Assembly (NCBI RefSeq): GCF_002285265.1
Contig: NZ_NSJB01000001.1
Coordinates: forward strand, 310,001-374,000
DNA from: Vandammella animalimorsus
GTDB taxonomy: Bacteria > Pseudomonadota > Gammaproteobacteria > Burkholderiales > Burkholderiaceae_C
Reading direction: 5' to 3'
DNA: 64,000 bases
Shown: piece by piece, positions 43,981 to 61,808 of the stretch
Numbering within the stretch: position 1 is the stretch's first letter
Layout: every line of letters starts with the position of its first letter
Position numbers and translations under genes: made by a program
Notes under the pieces: model-generated
The model's database searches: none
What the model was told of the DNA's origin: nothing
The model's input: the letters and a program-made list of their open reading frames with translations, nothing else

Positions 43981-44032
43981 AGGCTTGAGGGCTTGGGCCG
44001 CCAAGCCCGGCGGCAGCCGGCGGCGGTGGCGC

Positions 44033-44281
44033 TCAGCTCGACGAGGCCGGGCCGCCGCGGCCGGGCAGGTGGCGGAAGATGATGCGGCCCTTGCTCAGAT
44101 CGTAGGGCGACATCTCCAGCGTCACCTTGTCGCCCGCCAGAATGCGGATGTGGTGCTTGCGCATCTTGCCGCCGGTGTAGGCAATCAGCTCGTGGCCGTT
44201 GTCCAGCGTGACGCGAAAGCGCGAATCGGGCAGCACCTCGGTGACGGAGCCCTGCATCTCGATGAGTTCTTCTTTGGCCAT
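44033..44281 (-). CDS. infA: Translation initiation factor IF-1 (accessory copy)
   Basis: An 82-residue S1-fold protein: [52 protein letters not shown], and [14 protein letters not shown], all typical IF-1 positions, blocks shown separately. The tail GRGGPASSS is longer than in E. coli. It is solitary, not in a ribosomal-protein operon; Burkholderiales often carry a second infA in such isolated places, so this is probably the extra copy. It binds the 30S A site during initiation. Confidence 0.93.
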
Positions 44282-44479
44282 AAAGACAATTCAAAAATGG
44301 GCGGCCCAGGCAGGCCCTGGGCCGTATCCTGCGCCGCATGCCAGCCATGCCGCGCTGGGGTGAAAAAACAAAAACCCGCGATTTTATCCCCCTTTCGCCA
44401 GCCACGCCCGCGCTGTGTGGGTCTGCGCGCCATTGGCGATAGACTGGCGCTTTTTCCTCATCCTTGCCGTTGCATTGCC

Positions 44480-45520
44480 ATGCCCACTGCCGCCATTCAC
44501 CGCTCCTTCGGCCGCCCCTTTGCCCAGATCGACGTCTTCACCGCCCAGCCTGGCTGGGGCAACCCCGTGGCCGTGGTGCTCGATGGCGCGGGCCTGACGG
44601 ACGAGGCCATGCAGCGCTTTGCAAGCTGGACCAATCTGTCGGAAACCACCTTCGTGCTGCCGCCCACCGAGGCCGGGGCCGACTACCGCGTGCGCATCTT
44701 CACCCCGGCCGAGGAGCTGCCCTTTGCCGGCCACCCCACGCTGGGCAGCTGCTTTGCCTGGTTGGCCGCCGGCGGCCAGCCCAAGGATCCGGCCTGCATC
44801 GTGCAGCAGTGCGCCAAGGGGCTGATCCCCATCCGCCGCGAGGCGCAGCTTGGCGGCGGCGCCCGCCTGGCCTTTGCCGCCCCGCCCATGCAGGCCACGG
44901 CGGTGGACGAGGCGCTGCTGGCCCAGGTGGCCCGCGCGCTGGGCCTGCCCGATGTGAGTGCCATCGGCCAGGCCCGCTGGCTGGACAATGGCCCGCGCTG
45001 GCTGGGCCTGTGGCTGGCCGATGCCGACACCGTGCTGGCTTTGCAGCCCGACCACGCCGCGCTGGCCGCCTTGGGCGTGTACACCGGCGTGGCCGGGCCC
45101 TATCCAGCACAGTTGGCAGCCCAGTTGGCGGCCCAGGCAGTGGGGGAGGATGAGGCCGAAGCAGGCGCGCCGCTGATTGCCCGCGCCAGCCGCGAGGCAC
45201 GCGCCTTCGCTGCCCCGGCCGCGCGTCTGGCGCAGGCGGCACAAGCCGCGCAGCCTGCACAGGCTGAGGCCGAACCGCTGATTGAAGTGCGCGCCTTCGT
45301 CTCCGTCATCGGCGTGCCCGAAGACCCGGTCACCGGCAGCCTCAACGCCAGCCTGGCGCAGTGGCTGATGGCCCAAGGCCAGCTGCCCGCCGCCTACGTG
45401 GCCGCGCAAGGCAGTCGCATGGGCCGCGCCGGGCGCGTGCACGTGGCGCGCGATGCGCAAGGCCAGGTCTGGGTGGGCGGCGATTGCGTGGCCGTGGTGC
45501 AGGGCGAGGTGCAGCTGTGA
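44480..45520 (+). CDS. PhzF-family isomerase-like protein
   Basis: A 346-residue protein of the PhzF/diaminopimelate-epimerase fold: IDVFTAQPGWGNPVAVVLDG, WTNLSETTFVLPP with the catalytic Glu, RIFTPAEELPFAGHPTLGS, and VIGVPEDPVTGSLNASLAQWL. A roughly 50-residue Ala/Gln-rich insertion (about 210-265) lies before the last strand-helix unit and is atypical for the family. The substrate is unknown; most PhzF homologues are outside phenazine pathways. First of a four-gene run whose next member overlaps by 4 nt. Confidence 0.88.
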   Translation: MPTAAIHRSFGRPFAQIDVFTAQPGWGNPVAVVLDGAGLTDEAMQRFASWTNLSETTFVLPPTEAGADYRVRIFTPAEELPFAGHPTLGSCFAWLAAGGQPKDPACIVQQCAKGLIPIRREAQLGGGARLAFAAPPMQATAVDEALLAQVARALGLPDVSAIGQARWLDNGPRWLGLWLADADTVLALQPDHAALAALGVYTGVAGPYPAQLAAQLAAQAVGEDEAEAGAPLIARASREARAFAAPAARLAQAAQAAQPAQAEAEPLIEVRAFVSVIGVPEDPVTGSLNASLAQWLMAQGQLPAAYVAAQGSRMGRAGRVHVARDAQGQVWVGGDCVAVVQGEVQL

Positions 45521-46251
45521 GCGCCGCTGGCGAGACCGCAGCGGCAACGACAGCCGCCGCGCAGGCCCGGCTCGACCACCTGGTGATCATGGCCGACACG
45601 CTGGAGCAGGGCGCGGCCTGGTGCCAGGCCACGCTGGGCATCGCGCCCGGCCCTGGCGGCGCACACCCGCTGTTTGGCACGCACAACCGCCTGCTGTCCA
45701 TCGCCACGCAGGCCGGGCCATTTGCCCAGGCCTATCTGGAAATCATCGCCATCGACCCGGCCGCCAGCCCCGCCGCCGGGCCCGATGGCCGCGCGCGGCG
45801 GCGCTGGTTCGACATGGACGATGCCGCCCTGCGCGCCCAGGTGCGCGCGCAAGGCCCGCGCCTGATTCACTGGGTGGCGCGCGTGCCCGATTTGGCCCGC
45901 GCCTGCGCCGCCCTGGCCGCGAAAGGCATCGAGCGCGGCGACATCCTGCCAGCCAGCCGCCAGACGCCGCGCGGCCTGCTGCAATGGCAAATCGCTGTAC
46001 GCCCCGATGGCCAGCGCCTGTTCGATGGCTGCCTGCCCACCCTCATCCAATGGGGCCAGACGCACCCGAGCGACGCCCTGCCCGACAGTGGCTTGGCGCT
46101 GCACAGCCTGCACTTGCAGCACCCCCAAGCCGAGGCGCTGCGCGCCGCACTCAAGGCCCTGGGCCTGAGCGGGCAGCTGCAGCTGAGCGCCGGCCCAGCG
46201 CGCTTGAGCGCGCAACTGCACACGCCGCGCGGCCTGGTGACTGTGGCGTGA
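45517..46251 (+). CDS. VOC/glyoxalase-like domain protein
   Basis: A 244-residue protein starting with GTG that overlaps the phzF stop (GTGA). The N-terminal VOC fold reads LDHLVIMADTLEQGAAWCQATLGIAPGPGGAHPLFGTHNRLLSIA in blocks: the metal-binding His in LDHLV and the HNRLL strand. A second half (LIHWVARVPDLARACAALAAKG, LQWQIAVRPDGQRLFDGCLPTLIQWG) completes a glyoxalase-3-type domain. Substrate unknown. Coupled to phzF. Confidence 0.82.
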   Translation: MSAAGETAAATTAAAQARLDHLVIMADTLEQGAAWCQATLGIAPGPGGAHPLFGTHNRLLSIATQAGPFAQAYLEIIAIDPAASPAAGPDGRARRRWFDMDDAALRAQVRAQGPRLIHWVARVPDLARACAALAAKGIERGDILPASRQTPRGLLQWQIAVRPDGQRLFDGCLPTLIQWGQTHPSDALPDSGLALHSLHLQHPQAEALRAALKALGLSGQLQLSAGPARLSAQLHTPRGLVTVA

Positions 46252-46357
46252 CGGCGTTGAAAACCTGTTCAAAATCCGTTCCCGCCCTCACCAAGATCGT
46301 GAACAGGTTCCAAGAACCAGTTGGCGCCCTGGATGGTCAAGACAACCCCTGAAGACC

Positions 46358-46987
46358 ATGCCCCAACGCCTGCTCATCGCCGCCGATATCCACGGCCTGC
46401 ATGCGCCCTTGCGCGCCTGGCTCTCGCCCTTGCTGACCCTGGCGCACAGCGTGCAGCTGCTCTCGCCCTGGCCGGGCGATGGCGAGAGGCCGCCCCACGC
46501 CAGCGAAGCAGAAGCCGTGGCCGCCTTTCATGCGCACCAGGGCTTGCCCCGCTATGCGCAGCGCATCGCGCAGGCCATGGGCGATGCGCCGGTGTTTCTC
46601 GTGGCCTTCAGCGTTGGCGCGGCCAGCGCCTGGCATGCCCTGGCCGGCCCGGCCTGCCACCCGCACAGCCGTGCCGTGCTGTACTACGGCTCGCGCATTC
46701 GCGATGCCCTCACGCTCACGCCGCGCTGCCCGGTGCAGCTGGTGTTTGCCGAGCACGAAGCGGGCTTTGAGCCCCAGGCCATCGCCCCGGCGCTGGCCGC
46801 CAGCGGCGCGCACTGTGCCATCTTGCCGGGTACGCGACACGGCTTCATGAACCCGCTCTCGCCCCACTTCCAGCCTGCGCTGGCCCAGGCCCAGCGGGCC
46901 TGGCTCTGCCAGAGCCTGCGCCGTCATGGCCAGGGCCTGCCGTTCGATCCACTGCCATCAACCTTCCATTGCCCACCTACGCCATGA
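46358..46987 (+). CDS. Dienelactone-hydrolase-like alpha/beta hydrolase
   Basis: A 209-residue hydrolase. The nucleophile elbow reads AFSVGAASAWHAL (Ser in place of the usual Cys of dienelactone hydrolases); the acid is in LVFAEHEAGFEPQ and the histidine in LPGTRHGFMNPLS. The lid region is short. The likely activity is a carboxyl esterase on a small lactone or ester; substrate unknown. Its stop overlaps the start of the PLP enzyme gene (ATGA). Confidence 0.82.
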   Translation: MPQRLLIAADIHGLHAPLRAWLSPLLTLAHSVQLLSPWPGDGERPPHASEAEAVAAFHAHQGLPRYAQRIAQAMGDAPVFLVAFSVGAASAWHALAGPACHPHSRAVLYYGSRIRDALTLTPRCPVQLVFAEHEAGFEPQAIAPALAASGAHCAILPGTRHGFMNPLSPHFQPALAQAQRAWLCQSLRRHGQGLPFDPLPSTFHCPPTP

Positions 46988-47958
46988 ACCATGCCCCTGC
47001 TGCCTTGCCCAGCCTGGCCGCCATCGAAGCGGCCGCGCGCACCGTTTACCGTGAATTCCCGCCCACGCCGCAATACCGCTGGGCGCTGCTGTCCGAGCGT
47101 CTGGGCACCGAATGCTGGCTCAAGCACGAGAACCACACGCCTGTGGGCGCGTTCAAGATCCGTGGCGGGCTGGCCTACTTCCAACAACTGAAAGATGAGG
47201 GCGCACTGCCGCGCGCCGTCATCAGCGCCACGCGCGGCAACCACGGCCAAAGCATCGGCTGGGCTGCGCGCGCCCACGGCGTGGCCTGCACCATCGTCGT
47301 GCCGCGCGGCAATTCGGTGGAAAAGAACGCCGCCATGCGCGCCCTGGGCGTGGAGTTGATCGAGCACGGCGATGACTTCACCGAAAGCGCTGAACATGCC
47401 CAGCGCCTGGCCGCCGAGCGCGGCGCGCACATGGTGCCCAGCTACCATCCGGCGCTGGTGGCCGGCGTGGCCAGCTACTGGCTGGAGTTTTTGCGCGCCG
47501 TGCCGCAACTGCAAGTGGCCTATGTGCCCATTGGCATGGGCAGCGGCGCCTGCGCGGCCATTGCCGCCAAACAGGCGCTGGGCCATGGCGTGCGCATTGT
47601 CGGCGTGGTCAGCCGGCACGCCACCACCTATGCCGACTCACTGGCTGCCGGCCACGTGGTGCCTGCGCCGGCCACCACGCGCCTGGCCGACGGCATGGCC
47701 GTGCGCCGCGCCCACCCCGATGCGCTGGCCGTGCTGCAAGCCGGGCTGGACCATCTGGTGCAAGTCAGCGACGACGAAGTGGCCGCCGCCATGCGCGCCC
47801 TGCATGCCGACACCCACAATCTGGCCGAAGGCGCGGGGGCGGCCGCGCTGGCTGCCGCCTTGCAGGAGCGCGCCTCGCTGCAAGGCCAGTGCGTGGGCCT
47901 GGCGCTGACCGGCGCCAATGTGGATGCGGAGGTGCTGGCGCAGGTGCTGTCGGCCTGA
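46984..47958 (+). CDS. PLP-dependent threonine/serine dehydratase-like enzyme
   Basis: A 324-residue fold-type II PLP enzyme. The Schiff-base lysine is in HTPVGAFKIRGGLAYF, the phosphate/substrate loop in SATRGNHGQSIGWAARAHGV, and the glycine-rich loop in VPIGMGSGACAAIAA. It matches threonine dehydratase/serine racemase-type proteins lacking the regulatory ACT domain. The start at 46984 (MNHAPAA) uses the overlapping ATGA; an ATG at 46969 is also in frame. An octanucleotide repeat begins at its stop codon. Confidence 0.86.
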   Translation: MNHAPAALPSLAAIEAAARTVYREFPPTPQYRWALLSERLGTECWLKHENHTPVGAFKIRGGLAYFQQLKDEGALPRAVISATRGNHGQSIGWAARAHGVACTIVVPRGNSVEKNAAMRALGVELIEHGDDFTESAEHAQRLAAERGAHMVPSYHPALVAGVASYWLEFLRAVPQLQVAYVPIGMGSGACAAIAAKQALGHGVRIVGVVSRHATTYADSLAAGHVVPAPATTRLADGMAVRRAHPDALAVLQAGLDHLVQVSDDEVAAAMRALHADTHNLAEGAGAAALAAALQERASLQGQCVGLALTGANVDAEVLAQVLSA

Positions 47959-48000
47959 GCCCTTGAGCCCTTGAGCCCTTGAGCCCTTGAGCCCTTGAGC
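47956..48000. repeat. Octanucleotide tandem repeat (5 x TGAGCCCT)
   Basis: Five perfect copies of TGAGCCCT plus a partial sixth, beginning with the stop codon of the PLP enzyme gene. Because 8 is not a multiple of 3, the TGA words stop all three plus-strand frames. It lies in the short gap between that gene and the 3' end of chlD, which faces it. Confidence 0.92.
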
Positions 48001-48022
48001 GGCTTGCGCTTTGCGGCCTGCC

Positions 48023-48691
48023 TCAAGCCCCAGGCAGCAACTGGTAATGCGCCTGCCATTGCTCGGCCAGGGTGCGCATGCGGCCCAGGCGGATGCGGGC
48101 GCGTTCGCAGTCGATCAGCACCAGCTGCTGGGCGTGGGCCGGGCGCTGGGGCAGGCTCTGGCTGCGGCCGTCGCTGAGCAGCCAGAGGCTGTGGCCGGCA
48201 GGGCCGTTGGGGCCGGCGTGGCGGCGCAGCAGCAGGTCGGCCTGGGCCACGGCCTGGGCCAGCGGCGTGCCGCCGCCGCCGGGGATGGGGGCGATCCAGT
48301 CCTGGCTCCAGGCGGGCGGGCGCTGTGGCGGCAGGCGCAGTTGCACGCCCTGGCCGCCAAAGCACAGCAGGGCGATGTGCTGGCGCTGCTGGTAAGCCTG
48401 TTGCATCAGCGCCAGCAGCAGCCCCTTGGCCTGCGCCAGCGCGCCGCTGCGCAGCATGGAGGCCGAGCAGTCCAGCACGATGCAGTGCAGCTGCGGCGGC
48501 TGGCTCAGCGCGCTTTGGCGGCGCAGGTGCTGGGGCTGCAGCGCGGCATTGCCGCGCGCGATGAGCGTGCGCACCCAATCCCAAGGGCCGGCTGCGGCGT
48601 TGCCGCTGGCCGCGGTGGCCTGGGTGGCCAGGCTGGGCGTTGGCGTGGGCGGCCTTGCGCCGGCAGGCCGGCGCGGCGCAAGGCCTAGGCT
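48023..48691 (-). CDS. chlD: ChlD von Willebrand A half, read in the -1 frame
   Basis: C-terminal 223 codons of the medium chelatase subunit. Immediately after the A-run the -1 frame reads SLGLAPRRPAGARPPTPTPS, a continuation of the Pro-rich linker, then the vWA domain: IVLDCSASM (MIDAS DxSxS, Asp near residue 498 of the fused protein), IPGGGGTPLAQAV (MIDAS Thr) and LWLLSDGRS. No ATG is in this frame before the domain. The first usable start is a GTG at 48574, 40 codons into the frame, without a clear ribosome site, so fusion to the upstream ATPase by frameshifting is the better explanation. The total fused length is 646 residues, the usual ChlD size. Confidence 0.85.
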   Translation of the reverse strand, partial: SLGLAPRRPAGARPPTPTPSLATQATAASGNAAAGPWDWVRTLIARGNAALQPQHLRRQSALSQPPQLHCIVLDCSASMLRSGALAQAKGLLLALMQQAYQQRQHIALLCFGGQGVQLRLPPQRPPAWSQDWIAPIPGGGGTPLAQAVAQADLLLRRHAGPNGPAGHSLWLLSDGRSQSLPQRPAHAQQLVLIDCERARIRLGRMRTLAEQWQAHYQLLPGA

Positions 48692-48697
48692 TTTTTT
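48651..48697 (-). promoter_or_regulatory. Programmed -1 ribosomal frameshift signal in chlD
   Basis: On the minus strand, in the zero frame, GCA AAA AAA GCC TAG. The heptamer A_AAA_AAA (T7 at 48691-48697 of the plus strand) fits the X_XXY_YYZ slippery rule. The zero-frame TAG (48685-48687) comes one codon later. After a 5-nt spacer a perfect 12-bp stem (GGCCTTGCGCCG with its complement, 11-nt loop, 48651-48685) follows. Heptamer, spacer and stem-loop match known bacterial frameshift sites such as dnaX. All elements are seen in sequence; efficiency is unknown. Confidence 0.85.
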
Positions 48698-49962
48698 GCC
48701 GCAGGGCGCGGCTGGCCGGGCGCGCCCGCTTGGCCGTGCAGGTGTGGGGGCAGGGCGTTCAGGCCCGGCGCCTGGCCTGGGCCCAGCGGCTGCAGGCCGG
48801 CGGGCTCGGGCGGCAGCGCGCCCCAGTCGGCCTCACTGGCGGGGCGGGCGCTGCCAGCGCCGCCGCCATGGGCGTCGGCATGGTGACTGTGCCCGCTATG
48901 CCCGTTGCGCGGCTGGTTTGGGCCTTGATGCGGTGCGTTGCTGCCGTGTGCGGGCGCGCCTTCTGGCGCGGCGGCCCGCGGTGTGCCCTGAGCCTGGGGG
49001 GCGGGCTGGGGCGGGCTGTCGGCCTGGGCGGCGTGGGCGATCTGGGCGGCTTGGTGGGCGCTGGCGGGGCGGCGGCGGTGCGCCAGCACCAGCTCGGCCA
49101 CCTGCTCGACGTGCTGCGTGCCGATGTGGGCCGCGCTTTCCCAGGCGGCCAGTGCGCGCGCGGCGCGCAGCAGCACCATGTCGGCGCGCAGGCTGTGCAC
49201 CTGGGCGGCCAGGCAGTGCTCGGCGGCGGCGGCGTGCACGGCGTCGCTCCAGGGCAGGGCGTCGGCGCTGTGCAGGCGCTGGCGCGCGGCCTGCAGCTGC
49301 GCGGCCAGGGCCTGCTGGGCCGCTGCGTGCCGGGCGCGAAAGCCGATGGGGTCGGCGTCGAAGGCCAGCCGCGCCTTGACGATGTGCTGGCGCTGCGCGG
49401 CATCGTGCAGGCCGTCCAGCCGCACGCACAGGCCCAGGCGGTCGAGCAGTTGCGGGCGCAGTGCGCCTTCTTCGGGGTTCATGGTGCCGATGAGCACGAA
49501 GCGCGCCGCGTGGCTGTGGGAGATGCCGTCGCGCTCGACGCGGTGCACGCCGCTGGCGGCGGCGTCGAGCAGCACGTCCACCAGCGCATCGGGCAGCAGG
49601 TTGATTTCGTCCACGTAGAGCACGCCGCCGTGCGCGCGCGCCAGCAGGCCGGGGGCGAATTGCACGCTGTGGCCGGCCAGGGCGCGGCCCAGGTCCAGCG
49701 AGCCGGCCAGGTGCTCCAGGCTGGCGCCCAGCGGCAGGGTGACGAAGGGCGCATCGGGTTCGAGCAGCTCGGCCAGGCCGCGCGCGGCGGTGCTCTTGGC
49801 CGTGCCGCTGGGGCCTTCGATGAGCACGCCGCCGATGGCCGGGTCGATGGCCGCCAGCAGCAGCGCCTGCTGCAGCGCGGGCTGGCCCTGCAGCGCGGCG
49901 AAGGGGTAGAGCGGCAGCAGCGCGGCGCTGGCCTCTGGTGGCGGGGCGGGGCTGTGGGGCAT
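48685..49962 (-). CDS. chlD: ChlD/ChlI-type AAA+ chelatase subunit, zero-frame product
   Basis: A 425-residue AAA+ ATPase, equivalent to the small (ChlI/CobS-like) chelatase subunit when translation ends at the zero-frame TAG. Walker A is GPSGTAKST (50-58), Walker B VLYVDEINLL (Asp118, Glu119), and the sensor/arginine region GTMNPEEGALRPQLLDRLGL. A helical lid follows (QVHSLRADMVLLRAARALAAWE), then a His/Pro/Gln-rich linker ending in AAKKA at the slippery A-run. The ATG lies 1 nt after the cobN stop (TGACATG), so translation is coupled. No separate chlI gene is in the window. With CobN it should form an ATP-dependent cobaltochelatase of the hybrid CobN-ChlID type. Confidence 0.88.
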   Translation of the reverse strand: MPHSPAPPPEASAALLPLYPFAALQGQPALQQALLLAAIDPAIGGVLIEGPSGTAKSTAARGLAELLEPDAPFVTLPLGASLEHLAGSLDLGRALAGHSVQFAPGLLARAHGGVLYVDEINLLPDALVDVLLDAAASGVHRVERDGISHSHAARFVLIGTMNPEEGALRPQLLDRLGLCVRLDGLHDAAQRQHIVKARLAFDADPIGFRARHAAAQQALAAQLQAARQRLHSADALPWSDAVHAAAAEHCLAAQVHSLRADMVLLRAARALAAWESAAHIGTQHVEQVAELVLAHRRRPASAHQAAQIAHAAQADSPPQPAPQAQGTPRAAAPEGAPAHGSNAPHQGPNQPRNGHSGHSHHADAHGGGAGSARPASEADWGALPPEPAGLQPLGPGQAPGLNALPPHLHGQAGAPGQPRPAAKKA

Positions 49963-49963
49963 G

Positions 49964-52900
49964 TCAGTGCTCCAGCTGGTCTTCGAGTTCGAGCAGGTGC
50001 TGCTGCACCAGCTCCTGGTAGGGGCCGGGCTGGCGCCACAGGCCGCGTTGCATGGCTTCGAGCAGGCGCTCGAGCAGGTCGCGCAGCGCGGCGCTGTTGT
50101 GCTCGGCCAGGAATTGGCGCACGGCGGCATCGCCGGCGTAGGCATCGGTCAGCAGCGCCCAGTGGTGGTCGCTGACGGCATCGGTGGTGGCGGCAAAGCC
50201 GAACAAATAGTCCACGGTGGCGGCGATGTCGAAAGCGCCCTTGTAGCCGTGGCGCATGGCGCCGGCGATCCACTTGGGGTTGGTGGCGCGCGCGCGCACG
50301 ACGCGGCCGATTTCTTCCTTGAGGCTGCGCACGCGCGCCTGCTGCGGCTGGCCCAGGTCGCCGTGGTAGAGCGCCGGCTGGCGGCCGCTGAGCAGGCGCG
50401 CGGCGCTGGCCATGCCGCCCTGGAACTCGGCGTAGTCGCTGGCGCTGAGCAGGTCGCTTTCGTGCTGGTCCTGGTTGTGCAGCACGATGTTCAGTTGCGC
50501 CAGGCGGCGGCGCAGCGCATCGTGCGCGGGCAGGCCATCGGCATCTTGGCCGTAGGCGTAGGCGCTGGCCTGCAGATAGGCCTGGGCGAGCTGGGCTTGG
50601 CCTTGCCATTGGCCGCTGTGCAGCAGCTGGCCCAGGCCGCTGCCGTAGCGCCCGGCGGCGCTGCCGAAGACGCGCCAGCCGGCCTGGGCGCGGGCCTGCT
50701 GCGCGCCCAGGCCCTGGGCCTGCAGCGCGGCGCTTTCGCGCAGGATGCGGGCGCGGATGGGGTTTTGCGCCTCGTCCTCGCCGTCCAGCGCGGCCACGGC
50801 CTGCACGGCGGCGTCGAACATTTGCACGACGTTGGCAAAGGCGTCGCGGAAGAAGCCGGAGATGCGCAGCGTCACGTCCACGCGCGGGCGGCCCAGGCCA
50901 ACCTGGGGCAGGACCTCGAAATCGACCACGCGCTGGCTGCCTTCGGCCCAGCGCGGGCGCACGCCGATCAGCGCGAAGGCCTGGGCGATGTCATCGCCGC
51001 CGCTGCGCATGGTGGCCGTGCCCCAGACGGACAGGCCCAGCGCCTGCGGGTAGTCGCCGTGCTCTTGCAGGTAGCGCTCGATCAGGCGCTGCGCGGCCTG
51101 CTGGCCCAGCGCCCAGGCGGTGCGCGTGGGGATGGCGCGGGTGTCCAGGGTGTAGAAGTTGCGCCCGCTGGGCAGCACGTCGGGGCGCCCGCGCGAGGGC
51201 GCGCCGCTGGGTCCGGGCGGCACGAAGCGGCCTTGCAGGCCGTCGCACAGGCTTTGCAGCTCGCGCGGGCCGCAGGCGTCCAGCGCCGGGGCCAGTTGCG
51301 TGCGCAGGCGCGCCAGCACGGCCTGCGTCTGCGGCCAGTGCGGCAGGGCCTGGCGCAGCGCCTGCCAGTGCTGGGCGTCGTGGCGGGCATCGTGCTGGGC
51401 GTTGTCACTGGCCTGGCCAGCAGCGCCGCAGCCCGTGGGCGCATCGTCCAGCGCCAGCTGCAGCACCTGCTGGGCCAGCAGCTGCAGGCGCTCGCGCGTG
51501 TCGCCGTGGTGGCGCCATGGGGCGGCGCTTTGGGCCTGCAGCAGCGCCGGGCGCGGGCCCTGCCAGGCGGCGGTGCTGGGCCAGTGCGCGGGCTCGGGCG
51601 GCAGGGGCTGGGCCGCGGCCTGCGCTGAGCGCTGGAGCAGCTGCAGGTCGGCCGCCAGGGCCTGGGGCAGGCTGGGCTGCTCGGGCGTACCCTGGCGCAG
51701 CAGCGCCAGCAGCAGCTCGCTGCGCTGCGCGCCTTGCGGGCTGTGGCCGAAGGTGTGCAGGCCGTCGCGGATTTGGGTTTCCTTGAGCTCGCACAGGTAG
51801 GCGTCGATGCGTTCGAGCACGGCATCGTCCTGGCCGGCGGCCAGGGCCTGGCCCAAATCCAGCTCCTCGGCCAGTTGCTGCTGACGCACGGCCTGCAGGA
51901 TGTGCTGGCGCAGCGCCTTGGCGCGACGCGCATCGACCAGCAGGGCGTCGTAGTACTCGTCGATGAGTTGCTCCAGCGCCTGCATCGGGCCGTGGCTGCC
52001 GGCCTGCGTCAGCGGCGGGGTGAGGTGGCCGATGAGCACGGCCTGGCTGCGGCGCTTGGCCTGCGCGCCTTCGCCGGGGTTGTTGACGATGAAGGGGTAC
52101 AGGTGCGGCAGCGGGCCGAGGATGGCGTCGGGCCAGCAGTGCGCGCCCAGCGCCAGGCTTTTGCCGGGCAGCCATTCGAGGTTGCCGTGCGTGCCCACGT
52201 GCACCACGGCGTCGATGGCGAACACGTCGCGCAGCCAGAAGTAGAACGCCAGGTAGTGGTGCGGCGGCACGAGCTCGGCGTCGTGGTAGCCGGCCCAGTC
52301 CTGCGTGGCCGCGCCGGGCTGCGCCGGCAGGTGCGCGCGCGCGGGCTGGATGCCGATGAAGACGCGGCCCAGGCGCAGCCCGGCGATCATGAAGCGGCCC
52401 TGGCGCAGCATGGGGTCGGCCTCGGGCGGGCCCCAGCGCGCGTCGATGGCGGCGGCCATGCCCGCGGGCAGGCGCGCCAGGCGCTGGCGGTAATCGGCCA
52501 GGGCGTAGCTTTGCAGCGCCGGGCGCTGCGGCCATTGCGCCGGGTCGTTGGCAATGCCTTGCAGCAGCTGCTGCATGAGCTGCGCGCCGTCGCGCGGCAG
52601 TTGCTCGCTCGCGCCCAGCGCATGGCCCTGGGCGCGCAGCGCCTCGAGGATGGCCAGCACGGAGGCGGGCGTGTCCAGCCCGATGCCGCTGCCGATGCGG
52701 CCCTCGCTGCCGGGGTAGTTGGCCAGCACCAGGGCGATGTTTTTCTCGGCCGCGGGCAGCTGGCGCAGGCGGCACCAGCGCGCGGCCAGCTCGGCGGTGA
52801 AGGCGATGCGCTCGGGCTCGGGCTGGTAGCCGACCACGTCGGTCTGCGTCAGCGCGCAGCGGCGCAGTAGGCCCTTGAAGCTGATGGGCCGGCCGATGAT

Positions 52901-53932
52901 GCGCCCGTCCAGCTCGGGCAACACGATTTGCATGGCGATGTCGCGCGGGCGCAGGCCCTGGCTGTCGCCTTGCCAGTCCTCGCGGTTGCTGCCGCTGATG
53001 AGCACCTGCAGCACGGGCGCGTCGCCGGCCAGCGGGGTGAAGGCATCTGGCCCGCTGGCGGGCTGGGCCGCGCCGGCCTGGCTGGGGTTGAGCGCGGCAA
53101 AGGCGGTGGTGTTGAGCACCAGCTGCACCTGGTGCTGCCGGCACAGGCTGCGCAGGGCCTGCAGGCACAGCGGATCCTTGAGCGAGTCCAGCGCCAGCAC
53201 CAGCGGGTTCAGGCCCTGCTGCAGCAAGGCCAGCGCCAGGGCATCGAAGGGCCGGGTGTTGCCCGCCAGCAGGTGGGCGCGGTAGAACAGCAGCGCCACC
53301 ACGGGCGCGCCGTGCCGCCAGTGGCGCTGCCAGTCGTCGATGCCGGCCACGGCGTGGGCCGGGCCCAGCGCTGCGGGCAGGTGGATGGCCAGCTGCGGCA
53401 GTGGGCGCGGCGGCGGCGCAGCCTGGCCGTGGCCCAGGCCGGCGTGCGCAGCGGCGCGCAGAAAGCCTGCGGCATTGGCCGCGCCGCCAAAGCGCAGGTA
53501 TTGCCACAGCTGCTGGCAGGTGGCCGCTGGCAGGGTGCTGCGCGCCAGCAGGGCCGGGTCTTGCTGCAGATCGCCGGAGAACATGGCCAGCGCCAGGCCG
53601 CGCTGGCGCGCCAGCGCGCTGATTTGCCCGATGCCGTAGGGCCAGGTGGATTCGGAGCCGAGGTGATCGACGACGATCAGGCGCGCGTGCTGCAGCACTT
53701 CGTCCAGGTACAGATCCAGCGAGGCGTTCTGGCGCAGGTGCAGCAGGTTGGCCAGGCGCAGCGAGGGCCATTGCGCATCCTGCGCGGCCAGCTGGGCCTG
53801 GGCATCGGCCAGCAGCGCCAGCGTGGTGTCGGCGCTGCTGAGCACGACCATGTCCGCCGGGCTTTGCTCCAGGCGGGTGACGATGCCCTCGTCTTCGACG
53901 AAGCCGCCGGGGCGGGCGCTGAGCAGGTGCAT
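49964..53932 (-). CDS. cobN: Cobaltochelatase large subunit CobN
   Basis: Large catalytic subunit inserting Co2+ into hydrogenobyrinate a,c-diamide in aerobic cobalamin synthesis. The 1322-residue protein is full length for CobN. Recognisable blocks include VVDHLGSESTWPYGIGQ near the N-terminus, LVLANYPGSEGRIGSGIGLDTPAS, DAVVHVGTHGNLEWLPGKSLAL, GPLPHLYPFIVNNPGEGAQAKRR, SVWGTATMRSGGDDIAQAFALIGVRP, DVTLRISGFFRDAFANVVQMFDAAV and ATNPKWIAGAMRHGYKGAFDIAATVDYLFGFAATT. It starts 16 bp after the aroG stop and is followed at once by chlD. Confidence 0.95.
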   Translation of the reverse strand: MHLLSARPGGFVEDEGIVTRLEQSPADMVVLSSADTTLALLADAQAQLAAQDAQWPSLRLANLLHLRQNASLDLYLDEVLQHARLIVVDHLGSESTWPYGIGQISALARQRGLALAMFSGDLQQDPALLARSTLPAATCQQLWQYLRFGGAANAAGFLRAAAHAGLGHGQAAPPPRPLPQLAIHLPAALGPAHAVAGIDDWQRHWRHGAPVVALLFYRAHLLAGNTRPFDALALALLQQGLNPLVLALDSLKDPLCLQALRSLCRQHQVQLVLNTTAFAALNPSQAGAAQPASGPDAFTPLAGDAPVLQVLISGSNREDWQGDSQGLRPRDIAMQIVLPELDGRIIGRPISFKGLLRRCALTQTDVVGYQPEPERIAFTAELAARWCRLRQLPAAEKNIALVLANYPGSEGRIGSGIGLDTPASVLAILEALRAQGHALGASEQLPRDGAQLMQQLLQGIANDPAQWPQRPALQSYALADYRQRLARLPAGMAAAIDARWGPPEADPMLRQGRFMIAGLRLGRVFIGIQPARAHLPAQPGAATQDWAGYHDAELVPPHHYLAFYFWLRDVFAIDAVVHVGTHGNLEWLPGKSLALGAHCWPDAILGPLPHLYPFIVNNPGEGAQAKRRSQAVLIGHLTPPLTQAGSHGPMQALEQLIDEYYDALLVDARRAKALRQHILQAVRQQQLAEELDLGQALAAGQDDAVLERIDAYLCELKETQIRDGLHTFGHSPQGAQRSELLLALLRQGTPEQPSLPQALAADLQLLQRSAQAAAQPLPPEPAHWPSTAAWQGPRPALLQAQSAAPWRHHGDTRERLQLLAQQVLQLALDDAPTGCGAAGQASDNAQHDARHDAQHWQALRQALPHWPQTQAVLARLRTQLAPALDACGPRELQSLCDGLQGRFVPPGPSGAPSRGRPDVLPSGRNFYTLDTRAIPTRTAWALGQQAAQRLIERYLQEHGDYPQALGLSVWGTATMRSGGDDIAQAFALIGVRPRWAEGSQRVVDFEVLPQVGLGRPRVDVTLRISGFFRDAFANVVQMFDAAVQAVAALDGEDEAQNPIRARILRESAALQAQGLGAQQARAQAGWRVFGSAAGRYGSGLGQLLHSGQWQGQAQLAQAYLQASAYAYGQDADGLPAHDALRRRLAQLNIVLHNQDQHESDLLSASDYAEFQGGMASAARLLSGRQPALYHGDLGQPQQARVRSLKEEIGRVVRARATNPKWIAGAMRHGYKGAFDIAATVDYLFGFAATTDAVSDHHWALLTDAYAGDAAVRQFLAEHNSAALRDLLERLLEAMQRGLWRQPGPYQELVQQHLLELEDQLEH

Positions 53933-53948
53933 GGGCGCGCCGAGCCTC

Positions 53949-55106
53949 TCAGGCCGCGCCGCTGGCCGGCGCCGGTGTCTGGGCCGGGGCGGCGCTGGCC
54001 GTGGCATCGGTGCCGGCATCGGCGCTGCGCTGTGCGGCGCGCGCCTGGCGCAGCGTGTGCGCGCTTTGGCGCAGCAGGGCCTCGGTGGTGGGCCAGTCGA
54101 TGCAGCCGTCGGTGATGGACTGGCCATAGGCCAGCTTTGAGGGGTCATCGCCCAGCGGCTGGCTGCCGCCTTGCAGGTGGCTCTCGAGCATCAGGCCGAT
54201 GATGGACTGGTTGCCGTGGGCGATTTGCTCGATGACGTTCTGGAACACCAGCGGCTGGCGCTGCGGATCCTTGCTGGAGTTGGCGTGCGAGCAATCGACC
54301 ACCAGGCTGGGGGTGAGGCCGCGCGCGCGCAGCGCCTGCTCGCACAGCGCGATGCTGACGCTGTCGTAATTGGGGCCGCGGTGGCCGCCGCGCAGCACCA
54401 CGTGGCCGTAGGGGTTGCCGGTGCTGCGCGTGATGGCCGTCATGCCGCTGGCGTCGATGCCCAGGAAGCTGTGCGGGCGCGAGGCGCTTTCGATGGCGTT
54501 GATGGCCACCTCCAGCGAGCCGTCGGTGCCGTTCTTGAAGCCCACGGCGGTGGACAGGCCCGAGGACATTTCGCGGTGCGTCTGGCTCTCGGTGGTGCGC
54601 GCGCCGATGGCCGTCCAGCTCACCAGATCGCCGATGTACTGCGGCGAGATCGGATCCAGCGCCTCGGTGCCCACCGGCAGGCCCAGCGCGTTGATGTCCA
54701 GCAGCAGCTGACGCGCGATGTGCAGGCCTTTTTCGATGTCGAAGGAGCCGTTGAGGTCCGGGTCGTTGATCAGGCCCTTCCAGCCCACGCTGGTGCGCGG
54801 CTTCTCGAAGTACACGCGCATGACGATGCAGAACACGTCCTGCAGCTCATCGGCCAGGGACTTGAGGCGCCGGGCGTAGTCCATCGCGGCGGTCGGATCG
54901 TGGATGGAGCAGGGGCCCACGACCAGCAGGACGCGCGGCTCGCGGCGCTCGAGAATGGCCTCGACGCTGTGGCGGCCCTGGGTCACGGTGGCGCGCGCGG
55001 CCTCGCTCAAGGGGTGGGCGGCCAGCAGCTCCCGGGGGCTGAGCAGGCGCGTTTGCGCGCCGATGTGGCGGTTGTTCAGGGGCGGGGTGTGGGCGGCGGT
55101 GGACAT
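53949..55106 (-). CDS. aroG: 3-deoxy-7-phosphoheptulonate (DAHP) synthase, class I
   Basis: First enzyme of the shikimate pathway, condensing PEP and erythrose 4-phosphate. The 385-residue protein has LLVVGPCSIHDPTAAMDYA (metal Cys), MRVYFEKPRTSVGWKGLINDP, SSGLSTAVGFKNGTDG, RGGHRGPNYD and DCSHANSSKDPQRQ, all AroG-type hallmarks. The last 30 residues are an Ala/Thr/Pro-rich tail beyond the usual end. Which amino acid feeds back cannot be read by eye. Unusually it lies within a cobalamin-related operon, 16 bp before cobN. The start at 55106 is MSTAAHTPP. Confidence 0.94.
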   Translation of the reverse strand: MSTAAHTPPLNNRHIGAQTRLLSPRELLAAHPLSEAARATVTQGRHSVEAILERREPRVLLVVGPCSIHDPTAAMDYARRLKSLADELQDVFCIVMRVYFEKPRTSVGWKGLINDPDLNGSFDIEKGLHIARQLLLDINALGLPVGTEALDPISPQYIGDLVSWTAIGARTTESQTHREMSSGLSTAVGFKNGTDGSLEVAINAIESASRPHSFLGIDASGMTAITRSTGNPYGHVVLRGGHRGPNYDSVSIALCEQALRARGLTPSLVVDCSHANSSKDPQRQPLVFQNVIEQIAHGNQSIIGLMLESHLQGGSQPLGDDPSKLAYGQSITDGCIDWPTTEALLRQSAHTLRQARAAQRSADAGTDATASAAPAQTPAPASGAA

Positions 55107-55202
55107 GGCGTGCTTGACGGAGTGGGTGCCACGGGCGGGCAAATCAAAAGGGTGGGGCGGAGCAAAAAGGCGGGTCTGCGGGCCTGCCAGCCGGGCAGGG
55201 CA

Positions 55203-55898
55203 TCAGCTCGGGGGCAGGCGGCGATCCGGGCGCACCAGCAGGAACAGGCCCAGCGCCGTCAGCGCGCCCAGGGTGTCGGCCAGGATGTCTTTTTGCGCAT
55301 CCCAGACATCGCCTTGCGAGCCGAGGAATTCGATGCCGGCATCGCCGCCTTCGATCACGGCGTACTGCCACTCGATGATTTCGTAGGCAGCGGCCACGCT
55401 CATGATGAAAAACAGCGCGAAGAAGCAGGCCAGCACAGGCCCGCACAGGCGGCGGCGCAGCAGCCATTCGGCCATGGGGTAGCTGTAAAAGCCGATGATG
55501 AAGTGCGCCAGGCGGTCGAAGTGGTTGCGCCCCTCGCCCAGCAGCGGCGCCAGCAGGCGGTTGCCCCATTCAAAGGGCACGTTGGCAAAGGTGTAGTGCG
55601 CGCCCACCAGGTGCATGGCCATCCACAGGCTCATGAGCAAATAGGCCAGGTTGCTGAAGCGAAACCAGCGCTGGCCGATCACCAGCGCCGCCAGCACGGC
55701 CAGCACCGGCAGGGCTTCGGCGTACCAAACGGCGCGCGAGGCCGGCGCGATGGCCGACCAGCAGGCCAGCAGGCCCAGCGCCACGGCCAGCAGCGGCGCA
55801 AAGGCCCGGTTCAGCGCGCTGCGCGGCTGCGGCGCGGCCTGCATGGCGCTGGCAGGCGGGCGTGGTGTGGACGGATGTGGTGCGGGCATGGCCCTCAC
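55203..55898 (-). CDS. DUF2238 (YjdF-type) membrane protein
   Basis: A 231-residue protein with five to six membrane helices. The DUF2238 signatures are clear: FRFSNLAYLLMSLWMAMHLVGAHYTF, HFDRLAHFIIGFYSYPMAEW, VAAAYEIIEWQYAV and GSQGDVWDAQKDILADTLGAL. E. coli YjdF is the prototype; function unknown. It starts with GTG in a 4-nt overlap with the cobW stop (GTGA), an ATG at 55889 being the alternative. Coupled to a metal chaperone, it may serve metal or envelope homeostasis (inference). Confidence 0.88.
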   Translation of the reverse strand: MRAMPAPHPSTPRPPASAMQAAPQPRSALNRAFAPLLAVALGLLACWSAIAPASRAVWYAEALPVLAVLAALVIGQRWFRFSNLAYLLMSLWMAMHLVGAHYTFANVPFEWGNRLLAPLLGEGRNHFDRLAHFIIGFYSYPMAEWLLRRRLCGPVLACFFALFFIMSVAAAYEIIEWQYAVIEGGDAGIEFLGSQGDVWDAQKDILADTLGALTALGLFLLVRPDRRLPPS

Positions 55899-56947
55899 AG
55901 CCCCAGCAGGCCAAGCAGCTCGGCGCGCAGCTGCGCGGCATCGAGCTGCTGGCCAATGAACACCAGGCGCGTGCTGCGCGCCTGCCCGGCCGGCCAGGGG
56001 CGATCGAAGTGGGCGTCAAAGCGCTTGCCCACGCCCTGCACCAGCAGGCGCATGGGCTTGCCGGGCACGGCCACGAAGCCCTTGATGCGCAAGATGGCGT
56101 GGCGCTGCACCAGCTCGGCCAGCGCGGCCAGCAGGGGCTCGCGCTGCAGCTCGGGCAGCTCCAGCTGCAGGGCATCGAACTCGTCGTGGTCGTGGTCCTC
56201 GTCGTGGTCGTGGTGGCTGGGGCGCGCGTCGATGTGCGCCTCGGCGGCCTTGCCCAGGCCCAGCAGCACCTGCAGCGGCAGCTGGCCTTGGCGGGCGTGC
56301 ACGATCTTCACCTCGGCGGGCACTTCGGCGCGCACCAGCGCCTCGACGGCGGCCACCTCGGCCGCGGCGCTCAGGTCGGTTTTGTTGAGCACCACCAGAT
56401 CGGCCGCGCCGAGCTGGTCTTCGAAGAGTTCGTGCAGCGGCGATTCGTGGTCCAGGTTCGGGTCGGCCTGGCGCTGGGCATCGACGGCGCCGGGGTTGGC
56501 GGCGAACTGCCCGGCCGCCGCAGCCGGGGTGTCCACCACGGTGATCACGGCATCGACGGTGAAGGCGTTGGCGATCTCCGGCCATTGGAAGGCCTGCACC
56601 AGCGGCTTGGGCAGCGCCAGGCCGCTGGTCTCGATCAGCACGGCGTCGATGTCCTGGCGGCGCGCGGCCAGCTGCTGCATCACCGGAAAGAACTCCTCCT
56701 GCACCGTGCAGCACATGCAGCCATTGGCCAGCTCGTAGAGCTGGCCCTCGCGCTCGTTGCCGGCCTCATCGCAGCCGATGCCGCAGCCCTTGAGGATGTC
56801 GCCATCGATGCCCAGCTCGCCAAACTCATTGACGATCACGGCAATGCGCTGGCCGTTGGCGTTGTCCAGGATGTGGCGCAGCAGCGTGGTCTTGCCGCTG
56901 CCGAGAAAGCCAGTGACGATGGTTGCGGGGATTTTGGCGGTGTGCAT
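55895..56947 (-). CDS. cobW: CobW-family GTPase metallochaperone
   Basis: A 350-residue G3E GTPase. It has P-loop GFLGSGKTT (13-21), the metal site GCMCC (Cys77, Cys79, Cys80), ETSGLALP, VVLNKTD (guanine specificity), and a His/Asp-rich metal-binding stretch HHDHDEDHDHDE around 245. The C-terminal CobW_C domain (GFVAVPGKPMRLLVQGVGKRF) is complete. CobW supplies cobalt for cobalamin synthesis, while ZNG1-type relatives supply zinc. Co-transcription with cobN supports the cobalt role here. The start is at 56947, with an in-frame ATG at 56965 also possible. Confidence 0.92.
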   Translation of the reverse strand: MHTAKIPATIVTGFLGSGKTTLLRHILDNANGQRIAVIVNEFGELGIDGDILKGCGIGCDEAGNEREGQLYELANGCMCCTVQEEFFPVMQQLAARRQDIDAVLIETSGLALPKPLVQAFQWPEIANAFTVDAVITVVDTPAAAAGQFAANPGAVDAQRQADPNLDHESPLHELFEDQLGAADLVVLNKTDLSAAAEVAAVEALVRAEVPAEVKIVHARQGQLPLQVLLGLGKAAEAHIDARPSHHDHDEDHDHDEFDALQLELPELQREPLLAALAELVQRHAILRIKGFVAVPGKPMRLLVQGVGKRFDAHFDRPWPAGQARSTRLVFIGQQLDAAQLRAELLGLLGL

Positions 56948-57160
56948 GCGTGTGAGAGGCTTCAATGGTCAAGAGCAGCGGCAGCTTGCGGCCCCTATGC
57001 GGGCCCAAGGCGACAGGCCCGGACATTGGCTGCGCGCCTGCCTGGGCAGGGGCATGGCTGCGGCACTGGCGCCTGCTGGCCAGGCCGATATGGAAAAGGG
57101 GCTTGGGAAACTGCGCCGCACGGCCCACTGCACTGCTTGGGGCGGGCCTGGGCGGCGCCG

Positions 57161-57166
57161 ATTATA
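57161..57166 (-). promoter_or_regulatory. Possible -10 element for the cobW-cobN operon
   Basis: Minus-strand TATAAT, the only consensus -10 hexamer in the 400-bp gap 56948-57346. A convincing -35 is not seen. If used, the transcript has a leader of about 200 nt before cobW. I looked for B12-riboswitch core elements in that leader and did not find them. Otherwise the gap holds only the tRNA-His terminator. Confidence 0.35.
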
Positions 57167-57306
57167 GAGAGCGCAGCGGGCCCCATGCGCCTGCCGGCCG
57201 CCAGTGGCGATGGCCGACGATTGCCAGCGCCTCGGCACTGGCGGGCGCGTTGCCGATCAGGGTTGCAGGGCGTGTGCGCAATCCACGCAAACGGCGTTGA
57301 GACAAC

Positions 57307-57340
57307 AAAAAACCCCTGTTGCCAAGGCAACAGGGGTTTT
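57307..57340 (-). terminator. Terminator after tRNA-His
   Basis: A perfect 15-bp inverted repeat (arms AAAACCCCTGTTGCC, 2-nt loop) with A/T-runs on both sides, directly downstream of tRNA-His on the minus strand. It probably works in both directions. Confidence 0.92.
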
Positions 57341-57346
57341 GCTGTC

Positions 57347-57423
57347 TGGGGTGGCTGATGGGACTCGAACCCACGACAACCAGGATCACAACCTGGGACT
57401 CTACCAACTGAGCTACAGCCACC
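57347..57423 (-). tRNA. tRNA-His (anticodon GTG)
   Basis: Minus-strand cloverleaf: acceptor GTGGCTG paired with CAGCCAC, D-arm TAGCTCAGTTGGTAGAG, anticodon arm CCAGG TTGTGAT CCTGG with GTG anticodon, and T-arm CGTGGGTTCGAGTCCCAT-type GTTCGAG loop. The 5' extra G (-1) opposite discriminator C73 is the histidine identity element, and the 3' CCA is encoded. It is flanked by ppiD upstream and a strong terminator downstream. Confidence 0.97.
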
Positions 57424-57456
57424 AAATGAAAAACGAGATTATAGGGGAAATTTTTC

Positions 57457-59376
57457 TCAGTTTGGCCTTGGTACGCGAATTTGCACGTCGTAGGCCTGTT
57501 TGAGCACTTCGTAGTAGGCCTCGACCTCGGCGTTGCTCAGGCTTTGGGCCAGTTGCAGGCGCATGCCTTCGAGCATGGTCTCGCGTGCATCGGCGGGCTG
57601 GCTTTCGTCGAGCAGGGGGGCGATTTCCTTGATGCGGGCCAGCAGGTAGCCGCCGTCTGCCTGTTCAAAGCCTTTGATGCTGGGCAGCTGGGCCTGGGGC
57701 ACGGCCAGGATGTGCTCGACGTCGGCCGGGCTCAGGCCTTGCAGGTGCTGGCGCGAGACGGTCAGGTCCTGCTCGATGTCGATGCTGGCGGCGTCGGCCT
57801 GCCAGCGCGCCAGTGCGGCTTCGCCGGCCTGGCGTGCGAGCTTGGCCGATTCGCGCTCGACATACAGGCGCTGCACCTGGTCGCGGACCTGCTCGAAGGG
57901 CTGCACTTGCGCCTCGTGCACCTTGGTCACGCGGGCCGTGACCATCTTGTTGTTGCCGATGTCGATGACTTCGGTGTTCTCGCGCGCCTGCTTGGCCTGT
58001 TCACCAAACAGGGCGTTGAGCACGGCGGGCGCCTGCAGGGCGGCAGGGTTTTTCTCGTCCGGGCTTTGGGCGATGTTCTGCGCGGTCTCGATGCGCAGGC
58101 CCAGCTCATCGGCGATGGGTTGCAGGCTGTCGGGCTGCTCGTGGGCCAGGTTGCGCAGCTGGTCGGCGCGCTCGATGTAGCGGTTGCGCGCCAGGTTGTT
58201 TTTCACATCCTTTTCCAGGCGCTCGCGCGCTTGTTCGAAGCTGGGGATGACGGCGGGTTTGATGTCGGTGAGCTGGATGATGTGAAAGCCGTATTCGGTG
58301 GCGATGACGTCGCTGATGGCGTCCTTGTCCAGACCGAAGACTGCGGCATCGAAATCGGCCACCATGGCGCCGCGCGCAAAAAAGCCCAGGTCGCCGCCCT
58401 TGTCCTTGGAGCCGGGGTCGTCCGATTGCTCCTTGGCGATGGCCTCGAAGCGGCTGGGATCCTGGCGCAGCTGGGCCAGCGCCGCATCGGCCTTGGCGCG
58501 CGCCTGCTCGCGCTGCGCGCTGGACATGCTGCTGTCGGTGGCAAAAAGAATGTGGCGCGCGCGCCGCTGCTCCTGCGACTGGGCGTAGGCGGGCTTGTTG
58601 TTTTCGTAATAGCTGCGCAGCTCTTGCTCGGGCACGTCGATGCCTTCCATGAGGCTGTCCAGATCCAGCACGACGTACTCCACGTCCAGCAACTCCGGGC
58701 GCTGGAACTGCGCCGAATGGCTGTCGTAGTAGGCTTTCAAGGCGGCGTCATCGACGGCCACCTGGGCGGTAAAGTCGCTGGGGCTGAAGCGCTTGATGCC
58801 CACCAGGCGGCGCTGGAACACGGCGTCAACGGCGGGCTGGGCCTGGCGCGGCGTCAAGGTGGTGGCGTTTTGCACCACGCCCAGCACTTGCTGCAAGGCC
58901 AGTTGCCGGCGCACGCTGGCTTCGTACATTTCCGGCGTCATGCCGTGGCGGCGCAGCAGGTCGCGGTAGGCATTGGTGTCCAGGCGGCCGTCGCTGCCGC
59001 GCAGCTGCATGATTTCGGGCTGGTTCTGCAGCTCGCGCGCCAGCTGTGCATCGCTGATCGTGTAGTGGCGGTCGGCGGCGGCGGCGGCGAAGACTTCGTC
59101 GCGCACCAGGTTCTCCAGCACCAGGTAGCGCTGCATGGGGGCATCGAGCATCTCGGCGGGCAGGCCTGGGTTCTCGATGCGCATCCGGTCGGCGTATTGG
59201 CGGTGGGCGAAGTCCCAATCGCTTTGGGTGATGTCCTTGCCGGCAACGCGCGCCACGACGGGGCTGCGGTCGCCCAGCATGGAGGCATCGATGCCCACGA
59301 GAACGAATGCAAAAAACACCAGTGGGAAAAACACGATCATGACCACTTTGAGGTGCTTGCGAATGAATTCAAACAT
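57457..59376 (-). CDS. ppiD: PpiD/SurA-like inner-membrane periplasmic chaperone
   Basis: A 639-residue membrane-anchored folding factor. Residues 12-32 form one membrane helix (VVMIVFFPLVFFAFVLVGID), placing the rest in the periplasm. A SurA-N-like chaperone region follows (RVAGKDITQSDWDFAHRQYA, RLDTNAYRDLLRRHGMTPEMYE). The parvulin domain at about 265-365 includes RRARHILFATD, SDDPGSKDKGGDLGFFARGAMVADFDAAVF and TEYGFHIIQLTDIKP. A second, degenerate parvulin-like half follows. It helps outer-membrane proteins leaving SecYEG. The start at 59376 (MFEFIRKHLK) is clear. Confidence 0.93.
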   Translation of the reverse strand: MFEFIRKHLKVVMIVFFPLVFFAFVLVGIDASMLGDRSPVVARVAGKDITQSDWDFAHRQYADRMRIENPGLPAEMLDAPMQRYLVLENLVRDEVFAAAAADRHYTISDAQLARELQNQPEIMQLRGSDGRLDTNAYRDLLRRHGMTPEMYEASVRRQLALQQVLGVVQNATTLTPRQAQPAVDAVFQRRLVGIKRFSPSDFTAQVAVDDAALKAYYDSHSAQFQRPELLDVEYVVLDLDSLMEGIDVPEQELRSYYENNKPAYAQSQEQRRARHILFATDSSMSSAQREQARAKADAALAQLRQDPSRFEAIAKEQSDDPGSKDKGGDLGFFARGAMVADFDAAVFGLDKDAISDVIATEYGFHIIQLTDIKPAVIPSFEQARERLEKDVKNNLARNRYIERADQLRNLAHEQPDSLQPIADELGLRIETAQNIAQSPDEKNPAALQAPAVLNALFGEQAKQARENTEVIDIGNNKMVTARVTKVHEAQVQPFEQVRDQVQRLYVERESAKLARQAGEAALARWQADAASIDIEQDLTVSRQHLQGLSPADVEHILAVPQAQLPSIKGFEQADGGYLLARIKEIAPLLDESQPADARETMLEGMRLQLAQSLSNAEVEAYYEVLKQAYDVQIRVPRPN

Positions 59377-59708
59377 GCTTGTCCAATGAGGTGTCTGTCT
59401 AAATAGACTTGGCTGAGAAGAGCCAAGAACTGCAAGGCCGCGCTGGCGGCGCACTGCTTGGCGCGCCCCAGGGCCCATGGGCGCGTTCGCGCCGAATGTC
59501 GCCAGGCCTTGCAGGCCAAAGACCGGCAAGGCAAACCGCGCATTTTATAGGAGCAAAACACTGCCAGGCCCAGAGCCTTTGGCGGGGCAGGGGGAGGCGG
59601 GCGGGGTGAAAGGGCGCGCGTGGCGCAGCGGCCGCTTGTCCGCATGCGCCCGCCGCTGGTCACGGGTGATGGGGCCAGGGCGCAGGGGCTGCCTAGCATG
59701 GTCGCACC
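59377..59708. other. 332-bp intergenic region, no gene seen
   Basis: Between divergent ppiD and the pseudopilin gene. The only element noted is a minus-strand TATAAA (within 59545-59552) that may belong to the ppiD promoter. No ORF with plausible coding character, repeat or RNA was recognised. Confidence 0.5.
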
Positions 59709-60305: not shown

Positions 60306-60392
60306 GGTGCCGCCTTTGCACGTTGCAGGCAATGGGGGCGTTCGGCTCGCGCTGCAGCCCTGCTGACCCACACGCAGAGGCTGGCAGTCCTG

Positions 60393-61241: not shown

Positions 61242-61276
61242 GGGGTTGTGCGTGCAAGAGCGGCCTGAATTCCAGG

Positions 61277-61285
61277 TGCTATAAT
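61277..61285 (+). promoter_or_regulatory. Extended -10 promoter for rplS
   Basis: TGCTATAAT, an exact extended -10, lies 36 bp after the trmD stop and about 125 bp before rplS. A -35 is weak, as expected for extended -10 promoters. The leader carries complementary words CCTGGCT (near 61304) and AGCCAGG (near 61383) that could fold, possibly for ribosomal-protein control. Confidence 0.55.
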
Positions 61286-61791: not shown

Positions 61792-61808
61792 CTGCCTCGT
61801 GCGTGTTG

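Follow-up and report, generated by a model that had tools for sequence, protein, structure and literature searches.

Does the chlD gene of Vandammella animalimorsus, whose two halves lie in different reading frames, encode one cobaltochelatase subunit or two? The initial annotation of this locus proposed that the operon makes all three chelatase subunits from two genes through a −1 programmed frameshift. The locus lies in a 64-kb window (67% GC), the term window being used here for the whole stretch of DNA that was analysed. According to our analysis, the gene is very probably an fs-chlD of an aerobic cobaltochelatase composed of CobN, ChlI-like and ChlD subunits, with a short and a long product made by −1 frameshifting. 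The strand had not been given initially; chlD, the neighbouring genes cobN and cobW, the slippery heptamer and the stem are all located on the minus strand.

Reading frames and junction of chlD

The zero frame of chlD runs from an ATG at 49,962 to 48,685 and encodes 425 amino acids, comprising an AAA+ ATPase domain and a Pro/His-rich linker, which corresponds to a ChlI-like short product. It matches the Pfam families Mg_chelatase (PF01078), AAA_lid_2 (PF17863) and AAA_5 (PF07728). Additionally, partial matches to TIGR02442 ('putative cobaltochelatase') and TIGR02030 (ChlI) were obtained, both below the whole-protein cut-offs. The short form has a Walker A motif (GPSGTAKST) and a Walker B motif (VLYVDE).

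The −1 frame, from 48,691 down to 48,023, contains a linker and a von Willebrand factor A (vWA) domain with a DCSAS motif. This half matched PF13519 (30.8 bits; cut-off, 27), positions 453–638 of TIGR02442, and TIGR02031. Fusion of the first 424 residues to the −1 frame gives a protein of 646 amino acids that reads KK and then SLGL across the junction and stops at 48,023. Translation agreed with the initial annotation on the two reading lengths (425 and 646 residues), on the closing of the AAA+ frame one codon after A_AAA_AAA and on the −1 position of the vWA domain. As stated there, no ATG precedes the vWA domain; a GTG, however, occurs in the −1 frame at 48,574, 34 codons ahead of the DxSxS motif.

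The junction reads GGC A_AAA_AAA GCC TAG. The slippery heptamer (48,697–48,691) is positioned in the zero frame, with the codons GCA AAA AAA GCC TAG, and the zero-frame stop (48,687–48,685) follows one codon past it. Runs of seven A or T occur four times in the window. A stem-loop of 12 bp with an 11-nt loop (48,651–48,685) lies 3′ of the heptamer. Its arms, at 48,685–48,674 (GGCCTTGCGCCG) and 48,662–48,651 (CGGCGCAAGGCC), pair with zero mismatches, and the stem begins 5 nt past the heptamer, exactly as initially described, its first base being the final G of the TAG stop. Taken alone, this hairpin is modestly unusual (z, −1.94), with 9 of 200 shuffles folding equally well. An exact-pattern search found one copy of the stem in the genome, and its interpretation as a dispersed repeat was rejected on that ground.

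The junction in related genomes

A genus sample of ten genomes contained a chlD match in six, the window's genome included, and the other four gave no match at E 1e-30. Vandammella is a genus of the Comamonadaceae, for which the family sample comprised 397 genomes drawn from a larger group; 122 matches at E 1e-30 were obtained from 121 genomes. The family set was defined as 58 loci, namely 56 matches of at least 300 bits and two loci (from G008 and G009) taken from the genus search, and it includes the window's gene. The 66 matches left out reached at most 203 bits, mostly covered about residues 70–300 and were 40–53% identical, except for one fragment of 81%; they are probably bchI/chlI genes of other chelatases together with a few contig fragments. 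One genome (G388) had one match in the used class and one in the class left out. The named set consisted of the best 80 of 525 matches, overlapped the family set (e.g., L067 = L007 and L069 = L019) and included Caballeronia, Paraburkholderia, Variovorax, Pseudorhodoferax and Pseudomonas.

Relative to the AAA+ half, the vWA half was shifted by −1 in 57 of the 58 family loci and in 75 of the named loci (best 80 of 525), counts that do not represent independent events because the loci share descent. In two named loci, L072 (whose zero frame runs off the stretch) and L112, no vWA half was detected. Relatives with both halves in one frame had been put forward as evidence against a frameshift. Such relatives exist, but they are few, with one among the 58 family loci and three among the best 80 named loci, and one genome is counted in both. 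Within the stretches covered, a cobN sequence was present upstream of chlD in 54 of the 58 family loci and 76 of the 80 named loci (best 80 of 525); for the four family loci in which no cobN was seen, 1.4–1.5 kb of upstream sequence was covered, and two of them (L009 and L010) are congeners. Among the best 80 of 525, the closest named locus was that of Vandammella animalimorsus NML 03-0146 (L067), which is 89% identical over chlD.

A slippery heptamer in the zero frame near the frame end was present in all 57 frameshifted family loci (AAAAAAA in 49, AAAAAAG in three, CCCAAAG in three, AAAAAAC in one and CCCAAAA in one), and the −1 frame was open across it in every one of them. The zero-frame stop followed one codon past the heptamer in 53 loci and seven or eight codons past it in the other four. 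Heptamers of the type A6N occupied 53 of the 57 junction sites, versus 4 of the 20,586 other in-frame positions of the same zero frames, at which any heptamer of the form X_XXY_YYZ was found 55 times. Codon bias does not account for the AAA AAA pair at the slip site, since AAG makes up 244 of the 328 Lys codons elsewhere in the frameshifted family genes. In all 75 frameshifted named loci (best 80 of 525), the stop followed the heptamer at a distance of one codon (A7 in 37, A6G in 37 and CCCAAAG in one). By lineage, most Burkholderiales loci had A7, the frameshifted loci of Pseudomonas had A6G, and Tepidimonas and two genomes from that genus had CCCAAAG. Within the genus Vandammella, the heptamer varied among A7, A6G and A6C (L006–L011). 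Specifically, G007 and G008 have A6G and a stem unlike that of the window, and G006 has A6C and folds only weakly at this place (z, +0.3), although a helix with a long loop can be drawn.

An A7 run beside a hairpin could also act on transcription. RNA polymerase would then gain or lose an A in the run, producing mixed mRNAs with no ribosomal frameshift. According to excerpts of Antonov et al. (2013, NAR; PMC3711429), transcriptional realignment typically involves a homopolymer with a length of at least eight or a combination of two shorter homopolymers, and A7 comes close to that length. However, relatives with 3 to 6 consecutive A (CCCAAAG, CCCAAAA, AAAAAAG and AAAAAAC) have the same architecture, and their heptamers fit zero-frame re-pairing of tandem tRNAs. 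Since CCCAAAG and CCCAAAA keep the re-pairing and are short for polymerase slippage, they speak against a shared mechanism of transcriptional realignment, which we regard as very unlikely. The junction is most simply read as a site of −1 programmed ribosomal frameshifting at which two tRNA-Lys slip in tandem, helped by the hairpin.

The folding profile, computed in 55-nt segments along the 57 frameshifted family genes, had a mean z of −1.99 at offset 0 and −2.70 at offset +5 after the heptamer, with values elsewhere ranging from −0.60 to +0.29. At offset +5, z was below −1.5 in 45 loci and −1.5 or higher in 12. Helices were searched for at offsets 3 to 11, and because the best pairing was chosen for each sequence, part of the pairing results from the procedure itself. 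In 47 of the 57 loci, the best helix began at offset 5 or 6, and helices of eight or more pairs were obtained in 35 of the 57, versus 25% of 1000 random places. Moreover, the stem pairs exchange among relatives, for example, at offset 9 (A-T in 20, C-G in 19, T-A in 14 and T-G in one). The independent evidence for the stem is its constant position together with the z profile, and the comparison across species makes the evidence for the hairpin strong, although the single hairpin of the window's gene is only modestly unusual. A comparison with relatives had been suggested initially as a check, and it revealed that the −1 relation, the heptamer and the stem are conserved in Comamonadaceae and beyond.

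The stem and the adjoining T7 were also considered as a plus-strand terminator. None was found in a scan of 47,800–50,100 that covered loops of 3–8 nt and required a T run right after the stem. The fixed place of the stem relative to the heptamer across relatives argues for frameshifting over a terminator, and the latter reading is disfavoured.

Coupled re-initiation at the GTG at 48,574 would make chlD two genes, with the vWA half (183 amino acids) translated alone and no frameshift. In the window's chlD and its two closest relatives, the vWA domain has a −1-frame GTG ahead of it, a start-capable codon occupies the homologous position in 10 of the 57 loci (GTG in seven and TTG in three), and some start codon lies at least 12 codons before DxSxS in 50 of the 57. 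Against this, of the 57 residues homologous to the GTG, 35 are Pro, 15 are Leu and seven are Val, and seven loci lack a start codon 12 or more codons ahead of DxSxS. In addition, a start codon at that distance with a Shine-Dalgarno-like tetramer was seen in only eight of the 57 loci, the window's gene not being one of them. A separate start of the vWA half would leave the conserved heptamer, stop distance and stem unexplained, and this alternative is considered extremely unlikely. A sequencing error or a decaying pseudogene, to which the homopolymer at the frame break might point, has a practically negligible probability, given that the break has an identical position in 57 of the 58 loci, which come from separate genomes and have both halves conserved; among them are the congeners G002 and G009, which are 91% identical over the AAA+ half.

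Chelatase and cobalamin genes of the genome

The cobN gene (49,964–54,148), encoding the large cobaltochelatase subunit, ends one base before the chlD ATG. It matched TIGR02257 with 1450.5 bits (cut-off, 822) and is the sole PF02514 match in the genome. Its frame opens about 72 codons ahead of the best profile match, which starts at residue 73, and overlaps the end of the DAHP synthase frame at 53,949; the true cobN start is probably near 53,932. The DAHP synthase gene and cobW are located near chlD on the same strand, cobW lying upstream of it at 55,895–56,965 (TIGR02475, 517.6 bits; cut-off, 332). An Rfam scan of 44,000–62,000 found no cobalamin riboswitch near cobW, its only match being a tRNA at 57,350–57,422. 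At 47,956–48,000 of the window, a perfect tandem array of the 8-base unit TGAGCCCT (5.6 copies) begins at the stop of a threonine-dehydratase-like gene, which converges with chlD, and lies between the ends of the two genes.

The genome (G000) measures 3.1 Mb and is 99.72% complete. It contains four PF01078 matches, one of which is chlD; judging from their sequences, we take the other three to be a ComM/YifB-like protein, an RtcR-like regulator and ClpX. The PF01078 search found no separate ChlI elsewhere in the genome, and neither TIGR01650 nor TIGR01651, the profiles searched for CobS and CobT, had a match in it at E 0.001. The one other VWA_2 match in the genome presumably represents a YfbK-like protein. 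The genome-wide search for chlI, cobS and cobT that had been proposed initially thus found no separate small-subunit gene.

With regard to the aerobic cobalamin route, CobH, CobI, CobJ, CobM and CobF exceeded a family cut-off and, like a CobG-like protein, are encoded on a contig other than that of chlD. The match of CobF (precorrin-6A synthase) to TIGR02434 reached 284.5 bits (cut-off, 195.8). The CobG-like protein matched the precorrin-3B synthase (CobG) profile TIGR02435 over positions 2–384 of 388, with 208.5 bits, below the cut-off of 234.8.

Proposed recoding, published systems and in-frame fusions

Under −1 programmed frameshifting, most ribosomes would stop at the TAG and release the 425-aa AAA+ protein as the small subunit. 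In a fraction of ribosomes, both tRNA-Lys on A_AAA_AAA, delayed by the hairpin, would slip back by one base, and these ribosomes would go on to translate the vWA domain, producing the medium subunit of 646 aa. Together with CobN from the adjoining upstream gene, two genes would thus yield three subunits in a set ratio. Slippage in Vandammella animalimorsus itself, its rate and the roles of the subunits are what we infer from this anatomy, and homology and the literature suggest the short product as the small subunit. The initial proposal of three subunits from two genes gains support from the conservation of the junction and from the genome search, in which no separate small-subunit gene appeared.

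Reportedly, the two-subunit model was put into print by Antonov in MBE in 2020. It is also contained in excerpts of Kuznetsov et al. (2022; PMC9227772). Excerpts of Antonov et al. (PMC3711429) describe 23 magnesium-chelatase genes with −1 frameshifts, which had been annotated as two adjacent genes, in a cluster covering Pseudomonas, Burkholderia, Delftia, Herpetosiphon, Methanocaldococcus and Methanococcus. Of these genera, Delftia belongs to the Comamonadaceae, the family of Vandammella. According to the same excerpts, tests of three cassettes in E. coli gave frameshifting of 10, 40 and 63% for A7, A9 and A11, respectively. Frameshifting in chlD had therefore been reported already, as the initial annotation stated. 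The mechanism is not new, and the Vandammella chlD is one more member of the published fs-chlD genes.

As far as these excerpts describe them, the published genes resemble the Vandammella chlD in the gene concerned, the −1 direction, an A-rich site with a downstream RNA structure, and a genome in which cobN is present and a separate small subunit was not found; one of the cassettes tested had A_AAA_AAA. In the Vandammella gene, the ChlI-like AAA+ half and the ChlD-like vWA half are located in different frames, the downstream RNA structure is present with a putative stimulating role, and the genome has cobN, with no separate small-subunit gene found in the searches above. The difference from the excerpted descriptions is one of detail only, namely a perfect 12-bp stem starting at the stop codon and a host genus that these excerpts do not mention.

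The tau and gamma subunits encoded by dnaX of E. coli are AAA+ proteins. As proposed for chlD, dnaX makes two subunits of one complex from one gene with a tandem Lys slippery site and a hairpin, but in the excerpts of PMC3711429 the −1 frameshift of dnaX leads to the short product, whereas that of chlD would lead to the long one. The excerpts also describe a Shine-Dalgarno-like element upstream that stimulates frameshifting in dnaX; unlike dnaX, chlD has no GGAG, GAGG, AGGA or AAGG in the 25 bases before the heptamer. The CobN-CobS-CobT cobaltochelatase performs the same step with a homologous large subunit, but its small and medium subunits are encoded by separate cobS and cobT genes, both of which were sought and not found in the Vandammella genome.

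In Acidovorax sp. SUPP3334 (L019 = G306:C66; L069), the two chlD halves are located in one frame with a shorter linker, and cobN lies upstream. Its congener G179 (L012) has kept the −1 arrangement. Neither ChlI nor CobS was found in the SUPP3334 genome, where the PF01078 matches were read and TIGR01650 gave no match. We take the other PF01078 matches of this genome to be ComM-, RtcR- and ClpX-like proteins, the ComM-like one being judged by a 308-bit full-length match only. The fusion is likely a natural loss of the frameshift signal, and it may also be an assembly fault. Given the single reading frame and the negative searches for ChlI and CobS, the short product would be dispensable in SUPP3334 or made another way, and the strain may have a chelatase without a separate small subunit. 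The chlD halves of L118 (Pontibacterium) and L139 (Kushneria) are also in one frame, with no cobN in the stretch examined.

The chlD junction is a clean case of recoding with good conservation, by which the subunit ratio of a metal chelatase would be fixed. To the published fs-chlD genes, the present analysis adds a dense Comamonadaceae set, exchanged stem pairs and one natural in-frame fusion. It is doubtful that the slip site is tuned by lineage for the ratio of small to medium subunits and that at least one lineage, Acidovorax sp. SUPP3334, runs a fused CobN-ChlD chelatase without a small subunit; if this were true, the SUPP3334 enzyme would demonstrate that a separate AAA+ protein is not required. 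The in-frame fusion of SUPP3334 is a natural case able to test the need for the short form.
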